From positions 1-41,711 of IMG/VR virus record IMGVR_UViG_3300031277_000009: DNA of 41,711 nucleotides; one strand, 5' to 3'. The notes under the pieces are model-generated. The model ran no database searches. It was not told where the DNA came from and saw only the letters and a list, made by a program, of their open reading frames with translations. The position numbers and the translations under genes were made by a program. Numbering within the stretch: position 1 is the stretch's first letter; each line of letters opens with the position of its first letter. This document shows, piece by piece, positions 3,455 to 41,230 of the stretch. This DNA comes from a virus.

Positions 3455-5139
3455 TGGAAGAACGACAGCTGGTACGAAAAATCATTGAACGACAAGGGAG
3501 ACTCGAAGAAAAGCGTAGCAAATGGGAAGAGGTCTGGAAAGAAATCACCGAGCTGGTCATCCCCTACTTTGACATGTATATCCAGGAAGACACCGGCAAA
3601 CGTGGCCAGAAGCTGGGATCAAAGGTTTTTAACGGGATCCCGGTCAACGCGGCCCAGTTTTTTGCAAACGGACTGCAGGGGTACACCTGCTCGCAGTACA
3701 TGAAATGGTTCATGTCAATTCTGGAGGACGAAAAACTCAACGATCTGGCGGAAGTCATGGAATGGTCGCAGGAGCTGGACAAGCTGTTTTATTCCGTATT
3801 CCAGAAAAGCAATTTCTATTCCAGTATCAACGAAATGTTCCGGGTGGGGGGAACAATTTGTACATCTACGCTATATGTCGAGGAAGATATACAAAAAGAC
3901 ATGATTCTCTTCAACACCCGGCACCCGATTGAAATATATATCGATGTGAACAAATACAACCAGGTTGATACGGTATACCGGAAGTTCAAGGTATCGGCGC
4001 GCGTGGCAATTCAGATCTTTGGGGAGGAAAACCTTTCACCGGAGCTGGTAAGAACCAATAAATCGAATCCGGACACGGAATTTGAATTCCTACACGCGGT
4101 GGAACCCCGGGAAGATCGCAAGGAATGGAAGCGGGACGCGAAGAATAAACGGATTGCCTCGTACTACATCGAACTGGGGAAAGAACGGCTGATTACCAAC
4201 AAGCTTGCCCGCGAGTCCGGTTATGATCTCATGCCGTATCTGGTGTGGCGTCCGGAGAAAAACTTCCACCAGGTGTACGGCGGTGGTCCGGGGATGAATG
4301 CGCTTGTAGATATCTCTGGCCTCAATCAAATTTCGAAGGACCTTTTGCACGCAGCGGAATTGTCAATCAAACCGCCAATGCAGGCTAATGAAAGGATGCG
4401 GGGTCTTATACGCGTAATTCCCGGCGGTATTTCGTATTTTGAGAAACCGGAGGATGTCCTCAAACCGGTTTACGACCCGATAAATTTTCCCGTCGGAGTT
4501 GAACGTGAAGAAAAAATAGAAACAATCATCCGGAAACACTACTTTGTTGATTTCTTCATGCTGGTGGCCCAGGCGGAAAAAGAGCGGACCGCAACGGAGA
4601 TCAATTATATTCAGGGCGAAAAATCGGTAATGCTCGGTCCGATGATCGGGAACCTGAGTAATGATGTCCTTAATCCGCTTTTTGATATTGTATTTTCAAA
4701 ACTCCTGGCCGCTGGGAAAGTTCCCCCGCCGCCGCGGGTGCTGGAAAAATACGGCGGGAAAGACATTATCAAGATCGATTACCTGGGGCCGCTGGCACAG
4801 GCCCAGAAACGCCTGTTCCGCAGCCAGGGAATAACTGCCGGCATGCAGTCGATAGAACCGATATTGCAGTTCAAGCCGGAGCTCGCGGATATTATCGACT
4901 GGGATAAAGTGATCCGTGAAATGTTGGAAGCACAAGGGATGCCGCAAAAGGTTATCCGATCCCCCGAAGACGTAAAAAAAATACGTTTTGCACGGGCCCA
5001 GGCACTGCAGCAGCAGCAGGCGCTTGAGGCCATGGATAAAATGGCGAGTGCAGCCGGTAAGATCAACAAGCGCACGGAAGAAGGAAGCTTGCTGGAAAAA
5101 GTAGAGGGCGAAGCTACTAAGGCGCTCAAGGGGGCGTAA
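3454..5139 (+). CDS. Portal (head-tail connector) protein, T7 gp8-like
   Basis: This 561-residue protein would form the dodecameric portal through which DNA enters and leaves the capsid. It matches the podovirus head-tail connector family in length and in the conserved segment EKERTATEINYIQGEK (about residues 375-390). A long Gln/Ala-rich helical tail near the C terminus (ARAQALQQQQALEAMDKM) would make up the barrel or crown. The start used is the ATG overlapping the preceding stop; 13 further in-frame upstream residues lie within the previous gene. It is followed without a gap by small head genes. Confidence 0.93.
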   Translation: MEERQLVRKIIERQGRLEEKRSKWEEVWKEITELVIPYFDMYIQEDTGKRGQKLGSKVFNGIPVNAAQFFANGLQGYTCSQYMKWFMSILEDEKLNDLAEVMEWSQELDKLFYSVFQKSNFYSSINEMFRVGGTICTSTLYVEEDIQKDMILFNTRHPIEIYIDVNKYNQVDTVYRKFKVSARVAIQIFGEENLSPELVRTNKSNPDTEFEFLHAVEPREDRKEWKRDAKNKRIASYYIELGKERLITNKLARESGYDLMPYLVWRPEKNFHQVYGGGPGMNALVDISGLNQISKDLLHAAELSIKPPMQANERMRGLIRVIPGGISYFEKPEDVLKPVYDPINFPVGVEREEKIETIIRKHYFVDFFMLVAQAEKERTATEINYIQGEKSVMLGPMIGNLSNDVLNPLFDIVFSKLLAAGKVPPPPRVLEKYGGKDIIKIDYLGPLAQAQKRLFRSQGITAGMQSIEPILQFKPELADIIDWDKVIREMLEAQGMPQKVIRSPEDVKKIRFARAQALQQQQALEAMDKMASAAGKINKRTEEGSLLEKVEGEATKALKGA

Positions 5140-18029: not shown

Positions 18030-18157
18030 CGCGTAAAAAAGCTTCAAAGCTCCTGTGGGACGAAGTAGCCGGGAAGATTGAAAATAGACCTGTTGTGTGT
18101 ACGCACAACGGCAACAAAATAGCTGTTAATGATGGGATAAAGGAGTGTTTTAAATGA
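18026..18157 (+). CDS. Small basic protein between ejection and tail-fibre genes (43 aa)
   Basis: A short gene overlapping its neighbours by ATGA at both ends (18026-18029 and 18154-18157), the signature of coupled translation. The protein is basic and contains the stretch PVVCTHNGN. The DNA of this stretch is duplicated almost exactly at 32008-32034. No family recognised. Confidence 0.6.
   Translation: MTRKKASKLLWDEVAGKIENRPVVCTHNGNKIAVNDGIKECFK
18087..18111 (+). repeat. 25-bp dispersed repeat with hairpin, copy 1
   Basis: The 18-mer GTTGTGTGTACGCACAAC followed by GGCAACA occurs here and near 32010-32034. As plus-strand RNA it folds into a seven-pair hairpin (one U-G) with loop GUAC. On the minus strand the wobble becomes a C-A mismatch, which favours plus-strand RNA if the fold matters. 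Confidence 0.75.
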
Positions 18158-19755
18158 TACCGACAATCACGAGCAAAAAACAATATAACTGTGACGGCAG
18201 CCAGACGGTTTTTTCATTCGATTTTAAGATTTTCAGTAAAACGGATATCGTCGTCATTCTCACAGACAGTGATGGAATAGAATCAATACTCACGTATATT
18301 ACGGATTATACCGTCTCCGCCACAAATAACGATTTTTCCCAGGGTGGTGATGTTACTACCGTGGCTACCTATGCATCCGGAAACAAAATTACTGTCATGC
18401 GTGTTATCGATTTTAAACAGGAAACGGATTATGAGAATAACGAGAAATTCGACGCCGCGGCCTTTGAGAACGACCTGGATCGCGCGGCGTGTAGGGATCA
18501 GCAGCTGCAGGAACAATTTGACCGGGTAATTCACACCCCGAGATCAGATGAAACGGCAGACCTTGAAATTCCGGCAAAAGATGCCAGGGCGGGTAATTTC
18601 CTCGCGTTTAATGACGAAGGTGAACCCATCGCGGCGGAAGCAGTATCCAGTGCACCGGTAACCAACTTTATGAAGACTGTTCTTGATGATGAGACTGCAG
18701 TATTGGCCAGGGCAACGCTGGGGGTCCATAGTCTCGCAGATTCACACAAAACTGTTTCCAGAATTATTGCTTCAACCGACTCTGATTCAGAATATCAAAA
18801 CAGGGCAGATACCGTGATAGATACGGACGATGACGCAGGAGCAGCGATAAATACAATCCTTTCAACCGTAAACGGGATGGGAGGAGGGATAGTACTTGTT
18901 CTCCCGGGGACTTACAATATTGAAACAACAATTACCCCGGCAAATTATGTAACACTCATGGGCATGGGATTTGGAACTTTATTTAAACGCATGGCGGCGA
19001 TACAATATGTCATAGATGTATCAGGATCTTCTTATTGTACGTTAAAAGATTTCCAGATCGATGGTAATAAATCATCTTTCTCGGGCGGAATTTATATAGG
19101 TATTTATGCCAATCTTAATTATACGAATAATAATCAAAATATCATTTCACATGATAATGATGATTATGGTTTTTATAAATGTTGTTTTCTTACAAATTGT
19201 TATGCTTATGGAAATACCTCGGGGATAAGCCAATGTAGGCAAATAAATAACGGTTATTCATATAATAATTCAGAATATGGGTTCGATACTTGCTTTAATG
19301 TATGTGCTTGTTTTTCTTATTCCAATATTAAAAGCGGATACTATAATAATAATCAAATAACGGCGTGCGAAGCTACCGGAAATCTTGAGAATGGATTTCA
19401 GACATGTGTTAACGTATCTTCTTGCTGGGCATATCAAAATCATAATGATGGTTTTTTGGGCGGCCGGTATATAAGCGGCTGCAATGCCGAGGATAATACC
19501 AATATAGGGTTTAATGGCGCATATCATCTTTCAAATTGTCTTGCGTCATCAAACGACTTACACGGCTTTTCCGGATGTGTAGGGATCACAAATTGTTTTG
19601 CTACCAATAACACTGGTTATGGTTATTCTACCTGTACTGCTTGTGGACATAATAGGAGTACCTTCAATACTGCCGGCAATTATAATACTTGTTATGCTGA
19701 TTATGCCGGTTCCGTAGCTGTGGCTGATACAGCAGCCGGAGGGTGGAATGGCTAA
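18154..19755 (+). CDS. Tail fibre/tailspike 1 with cysteine-rich beta-helix
   Basis: This 533-residue receptor-binding protein has an N-terminal T7 gp17-like tail-attachment domain (first about 150 residues, QYNCDGSQTVFSFDFKIF start), a linker with LDDETAVLARATLGV, and a right-handed beta-helix from about residue 220. The helix part has short coils of about 22 residues, each with Asn, Gly-Phe and Cys positions (for example NGFQTCVNVSSC), and unusually many cysteines. Base composition drops to AT-rich in 19070-19690, suggesting the C-terminal part was acquired separately. No catalytic residues are recognisable. Confidence 0.88.
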   Translation: MIPTITSKKQYNCDGSQTVFSFDFKIFSKTDIVVILTDSDGIESILTYITDYTVSATNNDFSQGGDVTTVATYASGNKITVMRVIDFKQETDYENNEKFDAAAFENDLDRAACRDQQLQEQFDRVIHTPRSDETADLEIPAKDARAGNFLAFNDEGEPIAAEAVSSAPVTNFMKTVLDDETAVLARATLGVHSLADSHKTVSRIIASTDSDSEYQNRADTVIDTDDDAGAAINTILSTVNGMGGGIVLVLPGTYNIETTITPANYVTLMGMGFGTLFKRMAAIQYVIDVSGSSYCTLKDFQIDGNKSSFSGGIYIGIYANLNYTNNNQNIISHDNDDYGFYKCCFLTNCYAYGNTSGISQCRQINNGYSYNNSEYGFDTCFNVCACFSYSNIKSGYYNNNQITACEATGNLENGFQTCVNVSSCWAYQNHNDGFLGGRYISGCNAEDNTNIGFNGAYHLSNCLASSNDLHGFSGCVGITNCFATNNTGYGYSTCTACGHNRSTFNTAGNYNTCYADYAGSVAVADTAAGGWNG

Positions 19756-20889
19756 ATGATTCCCACCACCATAAATAAAACACAGTACGATTGCAACGGC
19801 GTTCAAACCGTGTTTCCGTTTGCTTTTAAAATATTCAATGAGACTGATATTGTGGTGATTCTCCGGGATAGTGTCGGGAAGGAAACTACCCTTGAGTTCT
19901 TGTCAGATTATGATGTAACGGCGGAGAATGACGATTTTTCCGATGGCGGGAATGTAGAGACCTTTGAGACTTATGATTCCGGGAATAGTCTTACGATTAT
20001 GCGCGTATTGGAACTGAAGCAAGAGACGAAATATAAAAACCTGGAAAAGTTTCCGGCACAGACTTTTGAGAATGACCTGGATAAACAGACCTGCATTGCC
20101 CAGCAGATACTTGAAAAAATCTCCCGGGCAATTCAGACAGCCGTAACGGATGAGGAGACGTCCCTGGAGATCCCTTCAAAGCTCGAGCGGGCAGGTAACC
20201 TGTTCGGTTTCGATGCGGAGGGGCGGCCCATGGCCGTGACCGGTATCAGCGGTGCACCGACAACTGAGTTTATGGCAACGCTCCTGGATGATGAGACCGC
20301 GGCCGCAGCTCTTACCACCCTGGGTATTTCGGCTTTCATCCAAACCCTGCTTGATGATGCAAACGCAGCGGCAGCGCTTACTACCCTTGGCATATCGGCC
20401 TTTATACAGACCCTGCTTGTCGCGGTGAACGCGGGAGCAGCCCGTACTACGCTGGATGTTTATAGTAAAGTCGAAATCGACGGGATGGTTTATCAATGGA
20501 TTCCGGTTGCCGATCCTTCGCAGGGATGGTTGCAATCAGTTACCAGTTGGACTGGTACTGATGATTTTGATAATCACGGAGCAATAATTGATTTCTCTTC
20601 TGTTGTGCCGACAGGGACTATAGCTATACTCTGTACCGTCGGGCATTACTCACAGGGGGGAACCTCGATGTATAGAGGTAATGGGGATACGAATATATCG
20701 AATACTCCGTTTACAGACAATGAAAACAGCCACGTATTGACAGCGGAAAGTTCAAACGCGGACATTAGAAAACCACGGGAAATATGGCTCGGCGCAGATT
20801 ATAAAATACAAGTGACTATTAATCACACAAGTATTGATCTTCACTTTTCTCCCCCAATTGCGGTATATGTCCCGATAGGAGCGGCATAA
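19756..20889 (+). CDS. Tail fibre 2, paralogue of tail fibre 1 in its N-terminal domain
   Basis: A 377-residue fibre whose first about 190 residues align throughout with tail fibre 1 (MIPTTINKTQYDCNGVQTVF against MIPTITSKKQYNCDGSQTVF), including the attachment domain and LLDDETAAAAL linker. The linker is itself expanded: the unit TTLGISAFIQTLLDD-N-AAAAL is repeated nearly exactly. The C-terminal about 135 residues are an unrelated beta-rich receptor-binding head. Both fibres probably compete for or share the same tail sites. Confidence 0.85.
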   Translation: MIPTTINKTQYDCNGVQTVFPFAFKIFNETDIVVILRDSVGKETTLEFLSDYDVTAENDDFSDGGNVETFETYDSGNSLTIMRVLELKQETKYKNLEKFPAQTFENDLDKQTCIAQQILEKISRAIQTAVTDEETSLEIPSKLERAGNLFGFDAEGRPMAVTGISGAPTTEFMATLLDDETAAAALTTLGISAFIQTLLDDANAAAALTTLGISAFIQTLLVAVNAGAARTTLDVYSKVEIDGMVYQWIPVADPSQGWLQSVTSWTGTDDFDNHGAIIDFSSVVPTGTIAILCTVGHYSQGGTSMYRGNGDTNISNTPFTDNENSHVLTAESSNADIRKPREIWLGADYKIQVTINHTSIDLHFSPPIAVYVPIGAA

Positions 20890-21197: not shown

Positions 21198-21431
21198 ATG
21201 AATGGATTTTTCCAAGACTCAAAAGGTAATAGATCAATGGGAAGACTTCTGGCTTTTCCAGTCGTGATCACCGGCCTGGTTTTATGTTGTTTTGGAAGTA
21301 TATCCTTCTTTATAAATAAAGACTTTCCGTCTGCAGCTGTCATGGGTACCGGAATAACTCTTGTTACCCTGGGGCTCGGGGCAAAGGCCCTGCAGAACAA
21401 CACGGAAAGAAGAAATGGAGAAATCAAATGA
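21198..21431 (+). CDS. Holin-like protein with two membrane helices
   Basis: A 77-residue protein with two hydrophobic segments (about residues 15-37 and 45-63) separated by a short loop and followed by a charged tail, the topology of class II holins. ATG at 21198 follows CCGGAGGTG; a GTG two codons upstream is less well placed. It overlaps the next gene by ATGA. Holin function is inferred from topology and neighbours. Confidence 0.7.
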   Translation: MNGFFQDSKGNRSMGRLLAFPVVITGLVLCCFGSISFFINKDFPSAAVMGTGITLVTLGLGAKALQNNTERRNGEIK

Positions 21432-21772
21432 AAGGAGTATTGAAACATGCGGTGGTTTTTATTGGTGGCGTTATTCTTGGGGCTGTTCTTACCCTCTGTG
21501 TTACATGCGGAACAGACTCAGGAGGAAGCGTTAAAGAAATTAGAACAGAACTCAAAATCATCTACGGAGGTCTCCAAAGTGCGAGATCAGATATCGCAGG
21601 CGCTCTTGATTACAATCGACAACTTGGAGAGGATAATACAGAGGCAGAACGAGAAATTAAAAAAGCAAGAAATCTTATTGAAAAACTCAGACAGGAAGAT
21701 CGCAAAAGCAGAGAACTCGACACAGAGCGTACAGGGCTTATTCGACATCTACGTAAGGGAGCAGGAGATTAA
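21428..21772 (+). CDS. Rz-like inner-membrane spanin candidate (114 aa)
   Basis: One N-terminal membrane segment (about residues 7-28, ending LTLCVTCG) is followed by a long charged coiled coil (about 36-105), the build of i-spanins, which help disrupt the outer membrane. The two cysteines lie near the end of the hydrophobic segment but lack a good lipobox. The gene has its own ribosome site (GGAG). Almost the whole gene is overlapped in another frame by the 135-residue gene. Confidence 0.7.
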   Translation: MKGVLKHAVVFIGGVILGAVLTLCVTCGTDSGGSVKEIRTELKIIYGGLQSARSDIAGALDYNRQLGEDNTEAEREIKKARNLIEKLRQEDRKSRELDTERTGLIRHLRKGAGD

Positions 21773-21854
21773 ACAGAAAATCATGGTCGGAATTATTATT
21801 GTTGAAGCCGTGGCCGTGATTGTACTTGGAAGTAAAATAATTTTTAAATGGTAA
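21447..21854 (+). CDS. Overlapping secreted coiled-coil protein with C-terminal membrane helix (135 aa)
   Basis: This gene lies in a different frame over 326 bases of the i-spanin candidate. The product has a classical cleavable signal peptide (MRWFLLVALFLGLFLPSVLHA), a charged coiled coil, and a C-terminal membrane helix (IMVGIIIVEAVAVIVLGSKIIF). AAAGGAG lies nine bases before its ATG. The nested layout recalls Rz/Rz1 gene pairs, but the product has no lipidation cysteine, so it is not a standard o-spanin or u-spanin. It may be its partner or a variant. Confidence 0.7.
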   Translation: MRWFLLVALFLGLFLPSVLHAEQTQEEALKKLEQNSKSSTEVSKVRDQISQALLITIDNLERIIQRQNEKLKKQEILLKNSDRKIAKAENSTQSVQGLFDIYVREQEIKQKIMVGIIIVEAVAVIVLGSKIIFKW

Positions 21855-21869
21855 CCTTGGAGGGGAACT

Positions 21870-22403
21870 ATGTTTGTTGAAGGATTAAAAAAGCTGGCCC
21901 AGAAAGCGGCCGGCCGCCTGGACCGGTTAACTGTATATTGGCCGTTCCGGAAAAAAGACGGATGGAAATGGACCCAAACACAAGGGCTTTCTCAATTTTC
22001 GCAGAAGACCCCGCGGCCATATAGGGAAGGGCTTCATACCGGAAATGATTTTGCAAATAAGGGGCAAGCACCAATTGTCGAGGCGCCGATCAACGGCCTG
22101 GTAACGTGTTCGCAGGATTTCGGACCCCGTGATAAAGGCAAAGTGATTGTAATTCATGATGAGGAGCACGGGATCTCGGTAGAATGTTGTCACCTGGCAT
22201 CATTTATCGTGTATCGAGGCCAGAAAGTAAAACGCGGGGATCCCCTCGGCATCGAAGGCAATACCGGCTTTTCTACTTCAAAGCATACACATTTTGAGTG
22301 GATCATCGATCCGACAAACCAGTTCATCCAGGACCGTCTATTATACCTGGATGGCTTTGATTATTCCGAGGAAGACCGAGCACGGGCAAAAGCATACCCC
22401 TGA
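21870..22403 (+). CDS. M23-family endopeptidase (endolysin)
   Basis: A 177-residue zinc endopeptidase of the LytM/M23 type that would cut peptide cross-links in the cell wall. The metal and catalytic motifs are present: H56xxxD60 (LHTGNDF), H108 (CCHLAS) and H139-T-H141 (KHTHFEW). Glycines around GYxxxGDP (VKRGDPLG) match the family. There is no signal peptide, so it would depend on the upstream holins. It is the last late gene before attP and the terminator. Confidence 0.9.
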   Translation: MFVEGLKKLAQKAAGRLDRLTVYWPFRKKDGWKWTQTQGLSQFSQKTPRPYREGLHTGNDFANKGQAPIVEAPINGLVTCSQDFGPRDKGKVIVIHDEEHGISVECCHLASFIVYRGQKVKRGDPLGIEGNTGFSTSKHTHFEWIIDPTNQFIQDRLLYLDGFDYSEEDRARAKAYP

Positions 22404-22529
22404 TTGCATAGTTTATTGCATAGTTTATCAGGTAACTACAGGTAACTTCTGGGCGTTTTCGATCTGTTATAATAGTAGAATTATGCGTCAGGTAAACTCA
22501 GGTAAGTCCAGGGAAGATGCTACCTAACC

Positions 22530-22570
22530 CTTCCAAGCTGGAGATGCCGGTTCGATCCCGGTCGGACGCT
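22530..22570 (+). other. attP core: 3' half of tRNA-Gly(TCC)
   Basis: The segment contains an anticodon loop CTTCCAA (anticodon TCC), the 3' side of the anticodon stem, a T arm GCCGG-TTCGATC-CCGGT, a 3' acceptor strand CGGACGC and discriminator T. The 5' half is absent: the bases before the loop do not pair with GCTGG. This is the usual signature of a phage that integrates in the 3' end of a tRNA gene and restores it. Confidence 0.9.
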
Positions 22571-22606
22571 TTCCCAAGTCTTTACAAGATAAGGATTTAT
22601 AAATTG

Positions 22607-22628
22607 CCCCCCACAAGGGGGTTTTTTT
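22607..22628 (+). terminator. Rho-independent terminator of the late operon
   Basis: CCCCC-ACAA-GGGGG followed by seven T. It lies inside the attP P' arm and ends the late transcript from the lysis genes. Confidence 0.9.
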
Positions 22629-22629
22629 A

Positions 22630-22658
22630 TTGACAAAATTGCATATTTTTTGCATAGT
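22630..22658 (+). promoter_or_regulatory. Promoter for the integrase-remnant operon
   Basis: TTGACA at 22630-22635 and CATAGT at 22653-22658 are 17 bases apart. The -10 lies within the third TTGCATAGTTTAT arm site, so binding of integrase there would repress transcription of the downstream genes. Confidence 0.5.
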
Positions 22659-22664
22659 TTATTT

Positions 22665-22892
22665 ATGGAAAAACAATCGCCTGGGTCTATTATAATTCGA
22701 AATTGGAAAAGATTAAAAAGGGGTGTAATCGGTCTTTCAAGATTTGAGGTTTGGCATAGTAACAGCAAGTGTCCTCAATCTTTTAGATTATTAAAAAATA
22801 TTGAAATAATTAATAATAATGGTGTATTTGAGGCCACACTGCCTCCGGAGACTAAAAGATATATCCGGGTTGTGATGATAGACAATATTTAA
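22665..22892 (+). CDS. Small hypothetical protein (75 aa)
   Basis: A basic N-terminal half (IRNWKRLKRGVIG) is followed by a beta-rich C terminus. There is no recognised family. It ends directly before the integrase-like fragment (stop TAA, then ATG). By position it could be an excisionase-like or regulatory protein, but nothing in its sequence shows that. The ribosome site is poor, and a start at 22650 is possible. Confidence 0.5.
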   Translation: MEKQSPGSIIIRNWKRLKRGVIGLSRFEVWHSNSKCPQSFRLLKNIEIINNNGVFEATLPPETKRYIRVVMIDNI

Positions 22893-23018
22893 ATGAGTAA
22901 ACCATTCAAGGAATACTGCCTACATAAACCCGCCGGCCGAAATTATTGGTATTATAAACTCCCGGAAATGCTCAGGTACAAATCAACCGGAAAGAAATCA
23001 AAGACCGCTTTTAATTAA
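22893..23018 (+). pseudogene. Integrase N-terminal fragment (41 aa), catalytic domain missing
   Basis: The product resembles the N-terminal arm-binding domain of tyrosine integrases: PFKEYCLHKP, then NYWYYKLPEMLRYKSTGKKS, in place of the usual P(F/Y)xxYxRxxxxYY.(K/R)....STG.. pattern. The frame stops just after this domain, where a full protein would continue for about 300 residues. The stop overlaps the convergent stop of the secreted-protein gene, so an insertion or replacement probably removed the rest. It could survive as a small DNA-binding protein for the arm sites. Confidence 0.55.
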
Positions 23019-23656
23019 AAAGTTCCACCTGCTTTATTATCTATAGTGACGGAGATAATTACATCCATCCCGAGATTAAAAAAATCGCCCTCTCCATGGG
23101 CCCAATCCCAGCTTAAAAAAAGTTCATCTTTACCGCCATAAATAACTGATATTTCGACAAGCTTCCCTTTATAAATAAATCTTTTGGCGACTATGTATTG
23201 GGTCATGCCTCCGGCCTGTCGCTTGACATATGCTATTTGTTCAGGCTCACCGTTCTTTTCAGAAGTTCCAAGATTGTATACTTGAAGATGGTCTTTGAGA
23301 TTGGTTAAAAGAAATTCATCGGTCAACATTACTGAGGCAATTTCCTTATCCGTTTTGTTTTTCAATTCCGGCAAGATATCCCCTATGACGATCATACACA
23401 TTTTAGTTCTGCCGTCTTTCTCGCGGCTAAGAAATAATTTTACGATATTCATTTCCGAATCATTACTATTTTCCATTTTCCATGTTTCAGGGTATTCAAC
23501 AGTTAGGGCGATATCCCCGGCCCTGGGATCCCCGGCGGTAGAATATACAATCGTTTTATGTTCATTAAATATTTGCAAGTCTTCCGCGAGAGTCGTTTGA
23601 CTGTATGCAATTAAACATAGGAGTGATAAAATAAGAGCAAAGAACAACCTTTTCAT
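23015..23656 (-). CDS. Secreted protein, possible lysogenic-conversion factor
   Basis: This 213-residue protein has an N-terminal signal peptide (KRLFFALILSLLCLIAYSQTTLA, with cleavage near LAE) and a beta-rich mature part without a recognised domain. It is transcribed with the repressor, overlapping it by four bases, so it would be made in lysogens. That makes it a candidate moron that alters the host envelope or environment. Function unknown. Confidence 0.75.
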   Translation of the reverse strand: MKRLFFALILSLLCLIAYSQTTLAEDLQIFNEHKTIVYSTAGDPRAGDIALTVEYPETWKMENSNDSEMNIVKLFLSREKDGRTKMCMIVIGDILPELKNKTDKEIASVMLTDEFLLTNLKDHLQVYNLGTSEKNGEPEQIAYVKRQAGGMTQYIVAKRFIYKGKLVEISVIYGGKDELFLSWDWAHGEGDFFNLGMDVIISVTIDNKAGGTF

Positions 23657-24054
23657 GCCTGGCCTCCTGTAATAATTATACTGTATCCTGGGGCAATTTT
23701 CCAGGTTATTTCTCTTTTACAAAATAAATGCGGATATAAGCGGGTCGTCTTTTTCAGTATCATTTTTTTATTGAAAGCTTCTTTTAATCCCTGGATTTCT
23801 TCTCTCAGGCTTCTGGAAACAGGATTCTTAACCAGATCGGCCTCTTCAATATCATCAGTTAGGCCGAATAAATATCGCGGATCAATTTGAGTTTTTTCCA
23901 AAAATAATTTGATTTCGGCCGGACCGAGGCCGCCTTCACTTCCTTTTTCTTTTCGACCATAAGATGCCCCAGATATTTTGAAAACTTTAGCCATGTCCTC
24001 TTGTGTTAATTCACGATATTTTCTTATCTTTTTTAGGCGCTCAAATACATTCAT
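23653..24054 (-). CDS. XRE-family repressor (CI-like)
   Basis: This 133-residue protein has an N-terminal helix-turn-helix (LKKIRKYRELTQEDMAKVFKIS, then a GRKEKG recognition region) and a C-terminal part lacking the LexA/CI autoprotease Ser-Lys dyad. The likely role is prophage repressor, controlling the divergent early promoter. The minus-strand TATATTAT lies just before the ATG, which suggests a leaderless message as for lambda cI. No Shine-Dalgarno sequence is seen. Confidence 0.8.
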   Translation of the reverse strand: MNVFERLKKIRKYRELTQEDMAKVFKISGASYGRKEKGSEGGLGPAEIKLFLEKTQIDPRYLFGLTDDIEEADLVKNPVSRSLREEIQGLKEAFNKKMILKKTTRLYPHLFCKREITWKIAPGYSIIITGGQA

Positions 24055-24338: not shown

Positions 24339-24727
24339 TGACTCCCGTCCTGGCCCTGATTATCATCCTTGAGGGCGGATTTATGCCCCTGGATGATTTT
24401 GTCGTTTATAACAGATTAATCAGCGCGCCGCAGTTTTATACCAACATGTACGCAGAACTTGTCCTCATGGATACGTTTTTCTTAGGCGCAGGGATGACCA
24501 GTTATTTCAAAGACAATTCGGATACCCCGTATATGTCACCGCAGCGCATGAACTATTTATTTACCTTCGGCCTGCGCTGGGAATGGTTGGAACTCGGATT
24601 CCGGCACACCTGCATCCACCCGGTCGTAACATTAATTCCTACACCGCAACCTCTCTGGGAAGGTGCTTATGAAGAAATCTATATCCGTGCCGAGTTCAAG
24701 ATTGATCTTATTGGGGGCAGTAAGTGA
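24335..24727 (+). CDS. Predicted outer-membrane-like beta-strand protein (130 aa)
   Basis: A hydrophobic N terminus (MMTPVLALIIILEGGF) could be a signal sequence. The rest is alternating beta strands rich in aromatic residues (YAELVLMDTFFLGAGMTSYF, LFTFGLRWEWLELGFRH), ending with a charged strand, the pattern of a small beta-barrel. A phage protein of this kind in the early operon might act at the envelope, for instance in superinfection exclusion. That is inference. Confidence 0.6.
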   Translation: MMTPVLALIIILEGGFMPLDDFVVYNRLISAPQFYTNMYAELVLMDTFFLGAGMTSYFKDNSDTPYMSPQRMNYLFTFGLRWEWLELGFRHTCIHPVVTLIPTPQPLWEGAYEEIYIRAEFKIDLIGGSK

Positions 24728-24984
24728 GTGATACAAAGACGATAAGAAAACAGAAAAAAGAACTCACCACCTTCGAGAAGATCATTTCCATTCAGAACCG
24801 GCACATAGATATGTTTTTGAGCACCTTCTGGGAGCTCTCCGTTTACACGGGGATCCCTGAACGGACATTTCATAATCATCCTGAACTTGTCCCCCCGCGG
24901 CATTATTACGGTGGCAACAGGTGGCGGATCCGGGACGTGATTGAACATCTTAACAAATATTATGAGGAGCATAAAAAAGCATGA
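24724..24984 (+). CDS. Winged-HTH (AlpA/MerR-like) DNA-binding protein
   Basis: This 86-residue protein starts at GTG overlapping the previous stop. The segment VYTGIPERTFHNHPELVPPRHYYGGNRWRI followed by RDVIEHLNKYYEE matches the AlpA/MerR-type helix, turn and wing. Such proteins act as excisionases or activators in prophages. Given the nearby attP, a directionality factor is possible. Confidence 0.6.
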   Translation: MSDTKTIRKQKKELTTFEKIISIQNRHIDMFLSTFWELSVYTGIPERTFHNHPELVPPRHYYGGNRWRIRDVIEHLNKYYEEHKKA

Positions 24985-30087: not shown

Positions 30088-30154
30088 AGGGAACCCATTA
30101 AAACCTGTCCTGGGAAATCCGGGCGGTAAGAAAATATTTGAGGAGAAAGCCTGA
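30080..30154 (+). CDS. Possible 24-aa peptide gene
   Basis: The frame starts inside the end of the zinc-ribbon gene and stops at TGATG shared with the ParB-like gene. The product is basic. Overlap geometry at both ends supports it, but nothing else does. Confidence 0.35.
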   Translation: MNKGNPLKPVLGNPGGKKIFEEKA

Positions 30155-31806
30155 TGGAAAAAGAAATGATACAACAAATTAATCTTGAAGACATAAAGCC
30201 ACATCCGGGGAATCGTCGGGTCGGCGGATTCGACGAGGCCAAGCTGCTGCAGCTGGCGGAATCAATAAAGGCAGTCGGGGTACAGCAACCGGCAATTGTA
30301 CGCGCGGTAAATAAACATTACCAGCTCGTCGCCGGAGAGCGCCGGTGGCGTGCATCAAAGCTGGCCGGTAAAGAAACGCTGCCCTGCGTGGTCCGCGAGC
30401 TCGATGATCTCACGGTCCTGAAAATCCAAACAATCGAGAACCTGCAGCGGGAGGATATCCACCCGCTTGATGAGGCGGACGGATACGCGCGATTAATTGA
30501 CCAGGCCGGATATGGTGTTGAGCTCGTAGCCCAGGAACTTGGGAAAAGCATCAGTTATGTGTATCAGCGTTTGAAACTCCGGGACCTGATAAAGGAAGCA
30601 CGGACTCTGTTTGTCGAGGGTAAGATTACGGCCGGGCACGCGATACTCATTGCCCGCCTGGAGCCGGAACAGCAAAAAGAGATTTGTGAAAAGGGTTTAC
30701 GTGACTGGGGCGGTAATCTCGCTTCCGTGCGAGAATTGGGTGATTGGATCCATGAAAATATTTTAATGGAACTATCCAAGGTGACATGGAAGCTTGATGA
30801 TGCAGAACTTTTACCGGCTGCCGGATCCTGTCTTAATTGTTATAAACGATCCGGATATCACCCCGATCTTTTTGCAGACGTCTGCACAAATAAAAAAGAT
30901 TACTGCACGGATCGCCATTGTTTTGCTGAGAAAGGTGAAGCAATGGTCAGCCGCCGGAAAGAAGAACTAAAGGGCACTGAGTATGTGGAGGTTTGCGACG
31001 GTTATATGCGGAAAACACCTGAAAACGCATTGGACTATTATCAATGGACAGAATGCAAAAAAAAGGACCAGGGTGCAAAACGCATACTCGTTGTTGCCGG
31101 CAGAAGTCCCGGCCGGCTCACTTATGGGAGAATAAGCTCTTATCGTGGGTATGAAAGATCACCGGAAGAAAAAGCCAGGGAGAAAGAAGAGCGGAAAAAA
31201 GAGAAACAGCTATCACAAATAGCAGATGCGATTCGCAGGAATGTCTATGTTGAGGTCCTTCACAATTTATATAAAGATCTTGAGAAAAATAAATTCCCAT
31301 TTGAGATTCTTAAGCTCATTGTGTTAAAGGTTTGGGATCGATGGTATTATGATTCCAAAGCTGTTCTCGGAAGGCTGGAAGGATGGATTGATAAGCGAAA
31401 ATCTGAGATCTATGAAAAAGGCGATGAGAAGATTAAGGAAATGGATTTTGACCAGCTCATGGTATTTCTTTTTAAAATTATCGTCTGCGAAGAAATGGAT
31501 CCCCGCGGTCCTTATCAATATTCCCCACAGATAAGGGATAAAGAGGTACACGGAAATCTAAAAGAAGCTGCACTGTTTTACAACATCGATATAAAGCAAA
31601 TCAAAAAAGAAGTTAAAGCAGGTTTCAATAATAAACCCAAAAAGCCTAAGAAGCAAGAAAAGGTAACCTTCTCCGGCGTGTGCCAGGTGTGTGGTTGTAC
31701 TGATGATAACTGCACGCAGTGCATTGAGAAAACCGGGGAACCATGTCACTGGGTGAATGAAGAACACACCCTCTGCAGCGCCTGCTCGGGGGATGCGAAT
31801 GCCTGA
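30154..31806 (+). CDS. ParB-like protein with cysteine-rich C terminus
   Basis: A 550-residue protein with a ParB/Spo0J N-terminal nucleotide-binding domain (GERRWRA at 61-67, ENLQREDIHPLDEA near 94-107) and a KorB-like HTH (VAQELGKSISYVYQRLKL). A middle cysteine cluster (CLNCYKRSG...CTNKKDYCTDRHC) and a second C-terminal zinc-like cluster (CQVCGCTDDNCTQC...CSAC) are added. No ParA partner is visible nearby. A DNA-binding or clamp role in replication or transcription is more likely than classical plasmid partition. Confidence 0.85.
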   Translation: MEKEMIQQINLEDIKPHPGNRRVGGFDEAKLLQLAESIKAVGVQQPAIVRAVNKHYQLVAGERRWRASKLAGKETLPCVVRELDDLTVLKIQTIENLQREDIHPLDEADGYARLIDQAGYGVELVAQELGKSISYVYQRLKLRDLIKEARTLFVEGKITAGHAILIARLEPEQQKEICEKGLRDWGGNLASVRELGDWIHENILMELSKVTWKLDDAELLPAAGSCLNCYKRSGYHPDLFADVCTNKKDYCTDRHCFAEKGEAMVSRRKEELKGTEYVEVCDGYMRKTPENALDYYQWTECKKKDQGAKRILVVAGRSPGRLTYGRISSYRGYERSPEEKAREKEERKKEKQLSQIADAIRRNVYVEVLHNLYKDLEKNKFPFEILKLIVLKVWDRWYYDSKAVLGRLEGWIDKRKSEIYEKGDEKIKEMDFDQLMVFLFKIIVCEEMDPRGPYQYSPQIRDKEVHGNLKEAALFYNIDIKQIKKEVKAGFNNKPKKPKKQEKVTFSGVCQVCGCTDDNCTQCIEKTGEPCHWVNEEHTLCSACSGDANA

Positions 31807-32002: not shown

Positions 32003-32086
32003 ATGACCGGTTGTGTGTACGCACAACGGCAACAGAAAGGCCGGTGCAGAAGCAAAACCCGAATGTATGATGAAACAGAGGAGTAG
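32003..32086 (+). CDS. Possible 27-aa leader peptide over the dispersed repeat
   Basis: A short frame spanning the second dispersed repeat; its last codons (GAG GAG TAG) carry the ribosome site of the radical-SAM gene. It may couple translation. The same DNA in another frame encodes PVVCTHNGN as in the 43-codon gene at 18026. Confidence 0.3.
   Translation: MTGCVYAQRQQKGRCRSKTRMYDETEE
32010..32034 (+). repeat. 25-bp dispersed repeat with hairpin, copy 2
   Basis: This is the same sequence as at 18087-18111, with GACC preserved upstream apart from one intervening base. It lies 14 kb from copy 1, just upstream of a radical-SAM gene. Confidence 0.75.
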
Positions 32087-32090
32087 GTAT

Positions 32091-32630
32091 TTGGGAAAAA
32101 AGGCAAGATTGATATTTACCAGGACATGTTTAAAACATTGTGACGGGTGCTGTATGAGGAATATTCCACAAGATGCTCCCAGAGAAATAAATATTAAACA
32201 GTTGGTCAATTATCAAGAAATCTGTATTACGGGCGGCGAGCCTATGTGTTTCCATCGTGAATTAAAAGATTTAATTTATTGTATCAAAAAAGAAAGCAGG
32301 ATTCATCGCCGGAAACCAAAAATAATATTGTATACAGCCAGCCCATATCCTGTTATTTCTTTTATCGATATTTTAAAAGAATTGGACGGCTGTACCGTGA
32401 CTTTACATGATGACCAAGATAAATGGGAGTTCTTTAGATCGCATTTAAATTTTATTGAACGCTTTCCTGAATCATCTTTAAAAAGTCTATGGCTTAATAC
32501 TTTTGTCTCTTTCTCAGAGAAAGAAATGTCTCTATGTACGGCATGGAAGGTGAGACAAAAAAAATGGTTGGAACACTGTCCTCTTCCTGAAGGAGAGGAG
32601 CTGGTAAGATTGAAGGGGCTGAATATTTAA
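32091..32630 (+). CDS. Small radical-SAM protein (179 aa)
   Basis: The cluster-binding motif C13-x3-C17-x2-C20 (TCLKHCDGC) and the SAM-binding GGEP (48-51, ICITGGEP) identify a radical-SAM enzyme. The barrel appears short, as in many phage members, and three further cysteines occur. TTG at 32091 behind AGAGGAG is chosen; the frame is open further upstream through a repeat, with poorer initiation signals. Substrate unknown. It is one of two radical-SAM genes in the accessory block. Confidence 0.75.
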   Translation: MGKKARLIFTRTCLKHCDGCCMRNIPQDAPREINIKQLVNYQEICITGGEPMCFHRELKDLIYCIKKESRIHRRKPKIILYTASPYPVISFIDILKELDGCTVTLHDDQDKWEFFRSHLNFIERFPESSLKSLWLNTFVSFSEKEMSLCTAWKVRQKKWLEHCPLPEGEELVRLKGLNI

Positions 32631-36884: not shown

Positions 36885-37204
36885 GCGAGATAATTAAGAA
36901 GGCGATAGCTAAAATAGTCGGCCAGTTTGATTATTGTGATCCATGCACCGGAGAACCAACTGATTATGCAGCAGGGGGCATGAAAATATTAACCAAAATC
37001 CTCACCGATCTGGTAGAGGAAGTGGAGAAGGATAAAAGAAAGGCAATTCAAGCAGCTAAAGCTTATCAAGAATTGTGCACTCATTATCGAATAGGGAAAA
37101 CCCCATCTGAAAAATTATTTAAAAGGCTTGATGCGGCAAATATGTTTTTAAAGCAAATAGAAAAAGAACTGGAGGGGAAAGATGAAAATATTACAAAGCA
37201 TTAA
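36881..37204 (+). CDS. Accessory family protein C (107 aa)
   Basis: It shares ILTDLVEEVEKD and the ending QIEKELEGK with family protein A. The DNA for the ending (37154-37175) is identical over 22 bases to that at 33017-33038 and provides the ribosome site of the next gene in both cases. Confidence 0.7.
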   Translation: MSEIIKKAIAKIVGQFDYCDPCTGEPTDYAAGGMKILTKILTDLVEEVEKDKRKAIQAAKAYQELCTHYRIGKTPSEKLFKRLDAANMFLKQIEKELEGKDENITKH

Positions 37205-38177
37205 AGTTCCGACAGGCGATATATTTATAGGCCAGGGAGAAAAAGGCAAGCTTGAGTTTTTGTCGATTGGCGATTACGGTAAAGAAAAAAATATAAAAGC
37301 CGATTTTCTGGGACTGCACAGAGAAATAAACGGAGTTCCTCACGGAGAGTTGCTGCCACTTACCGAAAAATGGGTGATTACAATATCGAGCCAATATGGT
37401 TGTTCCATGGGTTGTTCATTTTGTGATGTACCCAAAGTTGGCCCTGGAAGAAATGCAACATTTAAAGATTTAATCGAGCAAGTTAAAACGGCCCTTGCTT
37501 GGCATCCAGAAATAAATATAACAAAACGATTAAATGTCCATTTTGCAAGGATGGGTGAACCCATCTATAATAAAAATGTATTATACGCCACGACTTACCT
37601 GGCGGGGATGCTTAAAGAGAAGGCATGGGGATTCCATCCTGTAATATCTACAATAGTGCCGAGAGTAAACAGGGTGGAATCATTTTTATATGAGTGGCTT
37701 AGAATTAAAAATGATGTTTTAAATGGAGAAGCCGGATTACAGATAAGTGTAAATACTACTGACAAGCAAATACGTGAAAAAATAATGCCTTATGCCGTAT
37801 CGCTTGGAAAAGTTATGAACTTATTGGAAAAACCACTCAAGCAACATGGAATAAAAGGCAGGAAGATTGCACTCAATTTTGCCCTTACCAACGCCCCGGT
37901 AGACGCACATGAACTTTTTTGCTTGTTTGATCCTCAATATTTTATGTGCAAAATAACGCCCATGCATAAAACAAATGCGTGTATAAAAAATAAGCTAATC
38001 ACGGAAGATGGATATGATAAATATTATCCCTATAAACAGGTCGAAGAAGATTTAAAATCTAAAGGTTTCGATGTAATCGTTTTTATTCCGTCAAAAGAAG
38101 AAGATGAAAGCAAAATTACATGTGGCAATGCAATATTGAGCCAGAAGGAGGGGGGTCATGACAAAACAAGAGCTTAA
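37182..38177 (+). CDS. RlmN/Cfr-like radical-SAM enzyme
   Basis: This 331-residue protein has the RlmN/Cfr family layout: SSQYGC74-SMGC78-SFC81 for the iron-sulphur cluster, HFARMGEPIYN (120-130) for SAM, and a C-terminal ITCGN with C314 at the place of the methylated cysteine. The other catalytic cysteine, before SSQ (Cys118 in E. coli RlmN), is T67 here. So it may methylate by a changed route, act on another RNA, or do a different reaction. Its ribosome site is GGAGGGG at the end of the preceding gene. Confidence 0.8.
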   Translation: MKILQSIKVPTGDIFIGQGEKGKLEFLSIGDYGKEKNIKADFLGLHREINGVPHGELLPLTEKWVITISSQYGCSMGCSFCDVPKVGPGRNATFKDLIEQVKTALAWHPEINITKRLNVHFARMGEPIYNKNVLYATTYLAGMLKEKAWGFHPVISTIVPRVNRVESFLYEWLRIKNDVLNGEAGLQISVNTTDKQIREKIMPYAVSLGKVMNLLEKPLKQHGIKGRKIALNFALTNAPVDAHELFCLFDPQYFMCKITPMHKTNACIKNKLITEDGYDKYYPYKQVEEDLKSKGFDVIVFIPSKEEDESKITCGNAILSQKEGGHDKTRA

Positions 38178-40310: not shown

Positions 40311-41135
40311 TTAAGCCGCATTCACTCGCCCATGGGCCGTTCCCTTGACAAAATCAAAAATCGCCATTACCCGTTCAACCGCCTTCCCGATCATAAAAGC
40401 AACGTGCTGTCTGCCGGCATAACTTTTGATGTATCTTTGTGTTCCGGCCATGTCCGCCTTGAGTCCGACCAGGTGGGCCAGGAAACACGCTGAGAGTTCC
40501 GCGACGACCTCGGCCATGGCTCGCTGATCGTGAGTAGGAAATTTTGGTAAATTACCGAGCCTGTGATCAATCGCATGACTGAGCTCGTGTAAAAATGTTT
40601 GCTGGTCATCGGTGGCAAGGGTTATCTTGCCACTGGTCGAGTATATCCCATAAGCAATTTTCGAAAAACCGGCGACTACGGGGATCCCCATTTTCCTTGC
40701 AACGTCAATGAGGGGTAGGGTTTCCATTTTTTGTGTACGCGTTTCAAGTTCTTTTTTGTAGGGGAGCTCTTCTCCTTCCGTATCCTCATACCGGAATACG
40801 GGAATGTCAACGAAATACAACCAGGTTTTTTCCTTTTCCTCTTTCTTGCCGTCATCGTTTACAACCGTTTCTGTCCTCTTCCCCTGTCTCGGCGCGAGAA
40901 TATAAAAGGCTTTGCTGCCTTTTTTTACGCTGCGGCCGGCTTCCATCCACTGCTTAAAGCCTCTTGCATCAATCGTGCCGCTAAGTAAAACGGTAAGCTG
41001 ATTTAAAAAACTCCATTTCGTGCAAGGAATATTTGGGGGCAGGTAAAGGGTTTTTTGCAAATACCCCGGTAAATTTTCTTGATTGATCAACTGATCAACC
41101 ATTTTGTTTAGTCTGTCTACGTCCATTTTTTTCAA
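40311..41135 (-). CDS. ArdC-like antirestriction protein with zincin domain
   Basis: The 274-residue protein has an N-terminal DNA-binding part with the ArdC pattern (FKQWMEAGRSVKKGSKAFYIL, WLYFVDIPVFRYEDTE) and a C-terminal metallopeptidase-like part with HELSH (183-187) and a following glutamate. ArdC proteins protect entering DNA against restriction. The best start is TTG at 41135, behind AAGGAGGTG; the longer frame back to 41222 would translate through two leader hairpins. Confidence 0.85.
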   Translation of the reverse strand: MKKMDVDRLNKMVDQLINQENLPGYLQKTLYLPPNIPCTKWSFLNQLTVLLSGTIDARGFKQWMEAGRSVKKGSKAFYILAPRQGKRTETVVNDDGKKEEKEKTWLYFVDIPVFRYEDTEGEELPYKKELETRTQKMETLPLIDVARKMGIPVVAGFSKIAYGIYSTSGKITLATDDQQTFLHELSHAIDHRLGNLPKFPTHDQRAMAEVVAELSACFLAHLVGLKADMAGTQRYIKSYAGRQHVAFMIGKAVERVMAIFDFVKGTAHGRVNAA

Positions 41136-41160
41136 TTGGACACCTCCTTGAAATAAAATA

Positions 41161-41169
41161 TGCCTGACC
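41161..41169 (-). promoter_or_regulatory. GGTCAGGCA leader motif
   Basis: The same nonamer lies at 16-8, 39984-39976 and 41169-41161 on the minus strand, and at 26514-26522 on the plus strand, with an eight-of-nine copy at 7834. Two minus-strand copies stand between a hairpin and a Shine-Dalgarno sequence. Confidence 0.45.
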
Positions 41170-41171
41170 TT

Positions 41172-41220
41172 GTCCCGGACTTCGGACCGGGACTGTGGTT
41201 TAATGCCCGGTTTCCCGGGC
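41172..41220 (-). other. Twin-hairpin leader of the ArdC-like gene
   Basis: Hairpin 41172-41193 is GUCCCGG/CCGGGAC. Hairpin 41205-41220 is GCCCGG-GAAA-CCGGGC in minus-strand RNA, with a GNRA tetraloop. They are followed by GGTCAGGCA (41169-41161) and the ribosome site. Confidence 0.65.
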
Positions 41221-41230
41221 ACCCGTCACC

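Follow-up and report, generated by a model that had tools for sequence, protein, structure and literature searches.

A tRNA-Gly attachment site without a recognisable integrase gene in the genome of an epsilon15-like podovirus

The window analysed in this study is the whole of IMG/VR virus record IMGVR_UViG_3300031277_000009, a virus genome of 41,711 bp that ends in a 50-bp terminal direct repeat and, judged from that repeat, appears to be complete. Profile matches were obtained for terminase, portal, capsid and tail proteins as well as for Bbp16, and on the sequence of its head and tail genes the phage is assigned to the podoviruses and grouped with the epsilon15/phiV10 (Uetakevirus) and HTVC010P-type phages, with which it shares homologous portal, capsid and tail genes. 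However, its portal shares only about 29–33% identity with those of the nearest named members of the two groups, and phiV10 differs further in possessing a full integrase. Alignment of the portal gave relatives of 45% identity or less, mostly short fragments, while the YqaJ nuclease and a 1486-aa protein, used as queries, returned no close relatives. An integrase was present in 4 of the 25 related records, so that lacking one is nothing unusual among the wider relatives, but many of these records are fragments.

A bivalent attP spans positions 22403–22660, between the gene for an M23 peptidase lysin (21870–22403), its left neighbour, and a convergent gene that begins at 23015. The attP core (22530–22570, plus strand) extends from the anticodon loop to the discriminator base of a tRNA-Gly(TCC) and could be read directly: the anticodon loop CTTCCAA, a 4-nt variable loop, the T-arm GCCGG-TTCGATC-CCGGT, the acceptor strand CGGACGC and the discriminator T (U73). 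No whole tRNA was detected by ARAGORN, as expected of a half-gene core, and Rfam gave chance matches only. The best match in the phage collection was the tRNA-Gly/attP region of mycobacteriophages, with 90% identity over 41 bp to the tRNA-Gly of mycobacteriophage Serenity (E ~1e-5), which bears out the contention of the first-pass annotation that the attP has a tRNA-Gly(TCC) core, here the 3' half of the gene. The resemblance to a tRNA-Gly half is therefore clear; in a genome collection of 84,980 species, however, no match was obtained with the exact core or with a relaxed tRNA-Gly pattern (0 matches in ~85,000 genomes), and both the exact and the relaxed core were absent from the viral collection. 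A GCGTC at 22486, considered as a mimic of the 5' strand of the tRNA acceptor, was compatible with chance (estimated by hand).

Tyrosine integrases of the anticodon-loop sublocation exchange strands at the anticodon loop, and the centre of that loop was taken as the reference point for arm-site distances. The left arm-type sites P1 and P2 (22403–22426, plus strand) are tandem copies of (A)TTGCATAGTTT spaced by 12 bp and centred at −124 and −112, whereas the right arm-type sites P'1 and P'2 (22639–22660, plus strand) are TTGCATATTTT and TTGCATAGTTT, spaced by 11 bp and centred at +111 and +122, such that the two pairs lie almost perfectly symmetrically about the anticodon-loop centre. The TTGCATAGTTT pairs start at 22404/22416 and 22639/22650, with no other such pairs in the window; likewise, a TTGCATA-type tandem pair occurred in the window solely at 22404–22426 and 22639–22660 and in 0 of 100 dinucleotide shuffles. 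Arm-type repeats distinct from the core sites, the mark of a bivalent attP, are thus present on both sides as two symmetrical pairs. The phased arm-type repeats previously noted on both sides of the core stand as far as TTGCATAGTTT is concerned, but there are two repeat families, and the second, CAGGTAA, is confined to the left arm. Its copies start at 22429, 22439, 22489 and 22499, followed by a CAGGGAA variant at 22509 (22429–22515 overall, plus strand), at spacings that are multiples of 10 bp, and the four-copy pattern was found in the window solely at 22429–22505 and in none of 100 dinucleotide shuffles. With the left arm sites on one side and the core on the other, these repeats resemble the excisionase sites of L5-type attP and, to judge from this position, they are probably sites for excisionase (Xis) and not arm sites for Int.

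An intrinsic-terminator-like hairpin (22606–22630, plus strand) separates the core from the right arms, in the same place as the terminator of CrimD (PMC3203893). The attP of L5, Giles and CrimD are likewise bivalent, with the core 5' of int (a tmRNA in CrimD) and paired arm sites on both sides, which in L5 and Giles are in direct orientation, as here; these phages are nevertheless unrelated to ours, their arm sequences are different, and our genome has no working int. A sigma70-like promoter, TTGACA-17-CATAGT (22630–22658, plus strand), overlaps both P'1 and P'2 and matches the consensus at 10 of 12 positions, although the attP region showed no clear excess of promoter-like sites over shuffles. 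It is presumed to be the int promoter, in a layout that would allow int autoregulation. A comparable arrangement has been described in the KplE1 prophage (IntS/TorI), where autoregulation is predicted from the overlap of the int promoter with the recombination and arm sites (PMC2951348); the difference is that int would be broken here, leaving the promoter unregulated by Int.

When the viral collection was scanned for the tandem TTGCATANTTT pattern, ten loci emerged, two of which (L097 and L100, mutually related but not relatives of this phage) were in records with a tyrosine integrase gene, in line with the reading of the motif as an arm site. In L097 the tandem TTGCATAATTT lies at 4483–4505, approximately 200 bp past the 3' end of the integrase gene, and in L100 it lies at 150–172, with the integrase gene in the same record; both tandems are possible attP sites with a related arm-site code. 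The other eight loci, mostly coding or low-complexity sequence, had no integrase match, so that the tandem arm pattern alone is not diagnostic.

Searches for a recombinase were negative. With stops read through, six-frame searches at E≤10 produced nothing for the tyrosine integrase profile PF00589, and hence no R-H-R-Y catalytic domain was found anywhere in the genome, in agreement with the earlier observation; the resolvase domain of serine integrases (PF00239) was likewise unmatched at the default threshold (E≤0.001). The rest of an int gene was found neither in another frame nor elsewhere in the genome, and the large ORFs left over are either otherwise assigned or too small, with none that could encode a recombinase. 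The site, its symmetry and these null searches together support the central claim of the first-pass annotation, a complete attP without a catalytic integrase, and in the absence of Int the attP is unusable by the phage itself. The proposal that host Xer might serve as a borrowed integrase is unlikely, since the best matches to a dif-like site (three consensus sequences compared) were no better than those in shuffles.

Downstream of the attP is a 75-codon ORF (22665–22892, plus strand) with no homologue, no Shine-Dalgarno sequence and a weak codon signal, which is possibly untranslated, and then a 41-codon ORF (22893–23018, plus strand). Searching all PDB sequences (177,635) with the 41-aa product by phmmer at a threshold of E≤10 returned one match, the N-domain of a CP4-like integrase (3jtz, E=1.2), and tblastn against 50,697 phage records returned one match at E≤10, a DUF4102 integrase N-domain (E=3), both in register. 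Of eight weak matches in a plasmid search, five fell on the same integrase stretch (three annotated integrases, two unannotated). Because these integrase matches all come from one protein family, they do not count as independent evidence, and individually none reaches significance; against the phage integrase N-domain the 41-aa sequence scored z ~10 relative to shuffles, though this pair was picked as the top database match. The other integrases tested here did not match the ORF, and a degenerate motif for the integrase N-terminus, STGKKSKTA, gave 16 matches with no integrase among them. The only match in a search for relatives of the 41-aa product (L123) was rejected because it fell within a terminase gene, in the wrong frame.

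The integrase arm-binding N-domain is a three-stranded sheet packed on a C-terminal helix. AlphaFold2 modelling of the 41-aa product without an alignment gave three beta strands (pLDDT ~69) and no helix, the result to be expected if an arm-binding domain had been truncated ahead of its helix, while Foldseek searches with this model were uninformative. Codon usage in the ORF is coding-like, above that of 97% of out-of-frame windows. Since the sole PDB and phage matches land on the arm-binding domain of integrases, in the correct register, and the ORF lies beside the attP, we read it as a probable N terminus of int: it is quite likely to be an int remnant and probably holds the first ~38 codons of the gene. 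The similarity to an integrase N terminus reported earlier thus has moderate support, in that the frame exists and its sole PDB and phage matches (E=1.2 and 3) are arm-binding domains, but it does not extend to profiles, as Pfam, PHROG and NCBIfam gave no match (one uninformative PHROG, E=0.14). This lack of a significant profile match would also fit an ORF unrelated to integrase, either a separate gene or a chance frame at a place where int had never been or where the whole module had been replaced, as would the lack of a Shine-Dalgarno sequence, in contrast to the GGAGG of the neighbouring genes, a lack that also suits a dead int stub. Such an origin is rather unlikely, given that the ORF follows directly upon the attP and an int-type promoter, that its codon usage is coding-like, and that integrase arm domains are all that it matched in the PDB and phage searches. 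A present function of the remnant as a repressor of the arm sites or an excisionase-like protein, as previously suggested, is not supported, because the ORF ends before the helix that would complete the fold and has no Shine-Dalgarno sequence.

The stops of the presumed int stub and of the convergent gene overlap within a TTTTAATTAAAA palindrome, and a junction is presumed at 23010–23018. The convergent gene (23015–23656, minus strand) is preceded by GGAGG and encodes a 213-aa protein with no family match; its signal-peptide-like N terminus predicts a secreted protein, and it sits where the rest of int would be expected. Adjacent to it is a gene for a phage repressor-like HTH protein (23653–24054, minus strand). 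Only its location and, by eye, its C-terminal pattern make an 86-aa protein (24724–24984, plus strand) a candidate excisionase; it has no family match and a poor structure model.

Taken together, these features are best explained, with a probability of roughly 60%, by a temperate podovirus that has an intact attP and a destroyed int, and whose present genome is unable to integrate through its own attP; most likely, the phage has lost its own capacity for integration. Under this reading, two Int arm-site pairs lie symmetrically around a tRNA-Gly crossover core, with the int promoter under the right arms, such that Int would have repressed its own gene. A deletion, or replacement with the convergent gene at 23015–23656, would then have truncated int at approximately codon 38, so that the remainder of int came to abut the end of the 213-aa gene at the TTTTAATTAAAA palindrome, while the repressor-like gene was kept. 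We infer that the phage would now be a virulent or defective derivative, or would form abortive lysogens only. Several observations count against this loss reading: the similarity of the stub to integrases is not significant on its own, the core matches no genome searched, and an attP still intact after int was lost implies either that the loss is recent or that the site still has a use. Deletion in particular is weakened in that the full-length relative envisaged by the first-pass annotation did not emerge, no related phage with a full int at this place having been found.

The nearest precedent for int loss, by analogy, is the Cluster K mycobacteriophage TM4, described as a deletion derivative of a temperate parent, in which int and attP were lost and xis was kept (PMC3203893). 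In both phages the integrase is gone and other genes of the lysogeny module remain, and both are presumed to be non-integrating. In TM4, however, int was lost along with attP over ~3.5 kb, whereas in our phage attP is intact, an int stub probably remains and the repressor-like gene has been kept.

The break at a palindrome, together with the origin of the record as an IMG/VR virus contig, probably a metagenome assembly, would also be consistent with a population or assembly effect, in which a full int is carried by most genomes of this virus, the record being a deletion variant or else a consensus misjoined at ~23010. This is improbable, as the record closes with its 50-bp terminal repeat and the convergent gene, which has a signal-peptide-like start and GGAGG, reaches its own stop at the joint.

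The first-pass annotation had offered either an integrase borrowed in trans or a recent loss of integration, and of the two, loss is the simpler reading, although the data do not separate them, as a recent loss would leave an identical sequence. A resident prophage or other element could supply an integrase that shares the arm and core specificity of this attP and integrates and excises the phage, and such help would accord with an attP that looks complete and undecayed, with four near-identical and symmetrical arm sites, and with retention of the repressor; the tandem TTGCATA arm sites that adjoin integrases elsewhere imply that compatible integrases could exist. Against this, no host, lysogen or helper was found in the collections searched, and most hosts would need to harbour a helper whose arm and core specificities match, so we regard help in trans as unlikely. 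A stronger form, in which the phage is an integrase parasite whose attP is under selection, using the integrase (perhaps also the Xis) of a resident prophage that shares its arm-site code, with lysogeny dependent on co-infection, is distinctly unlikely.

Maintenance as an extrachromosomal prophage is suggested by a ParB (30154–31806) with ParB_N and HTH domains, which could have taken over from integration, given that ~20% of cluster A mycobacteriophages have parABS instead of an integration cassette (PMC7157519). In those phages, however, parABS replaces the cassette (PMC7157519), whereas attP is kept here; moreover, no ParA Walker motif was found in the genome and no obvious palindromic parS, i.e. 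palindromes of at least 12 bp, beside parB. In VarioGold and Aval, whose ParB proteins are the closest, a tyrosine integrase and a MerR/AlpA-type gene are present as well. With ParA missing and an integrase present in the closest ParB phages, ParB alone is no argument for a plasmid prophage, and this explanation is highly improbable.

If int was indeed lost, the locus would be a clean natural case of an attachment site that outlives its integrase, unlike TM4, in which both were lost together. A functional attP would offer a test of whether tailed phages use the integrase of another element for lysogeny; if the site is not functional, the genome would capture the loss of temperate life among epsilon15-like podoviruses at an early stage.

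Other features of the genome were recorded. The terminase ORF (608–2722) has an N-terminal extension of ~200 residues without similarity to terminases, and the true start may lie downstream. Two neighbouring tail fibre or spike genes (18154–20889) share a similar N-terminal virion-attachment region (~130 aa), which suggests a tandem duplication with different receptor ends. Before the M23 lysin gene, two overlapping ORFs with N-terminal membrane segments (21428–21854) have a spanin (Rz/Rz1)-like arrangement. There are two radical-SAM-type proteins, one distantly RlmN-like (37182–38177, 24–29% identity) and a second with weak 4Fe-4S/radical SAM likeness (32013–32630), and the minus strand encodes, at 40311–41222, an ArdC-like anti-restriction protein that contains a zincin-type peptidase domain.
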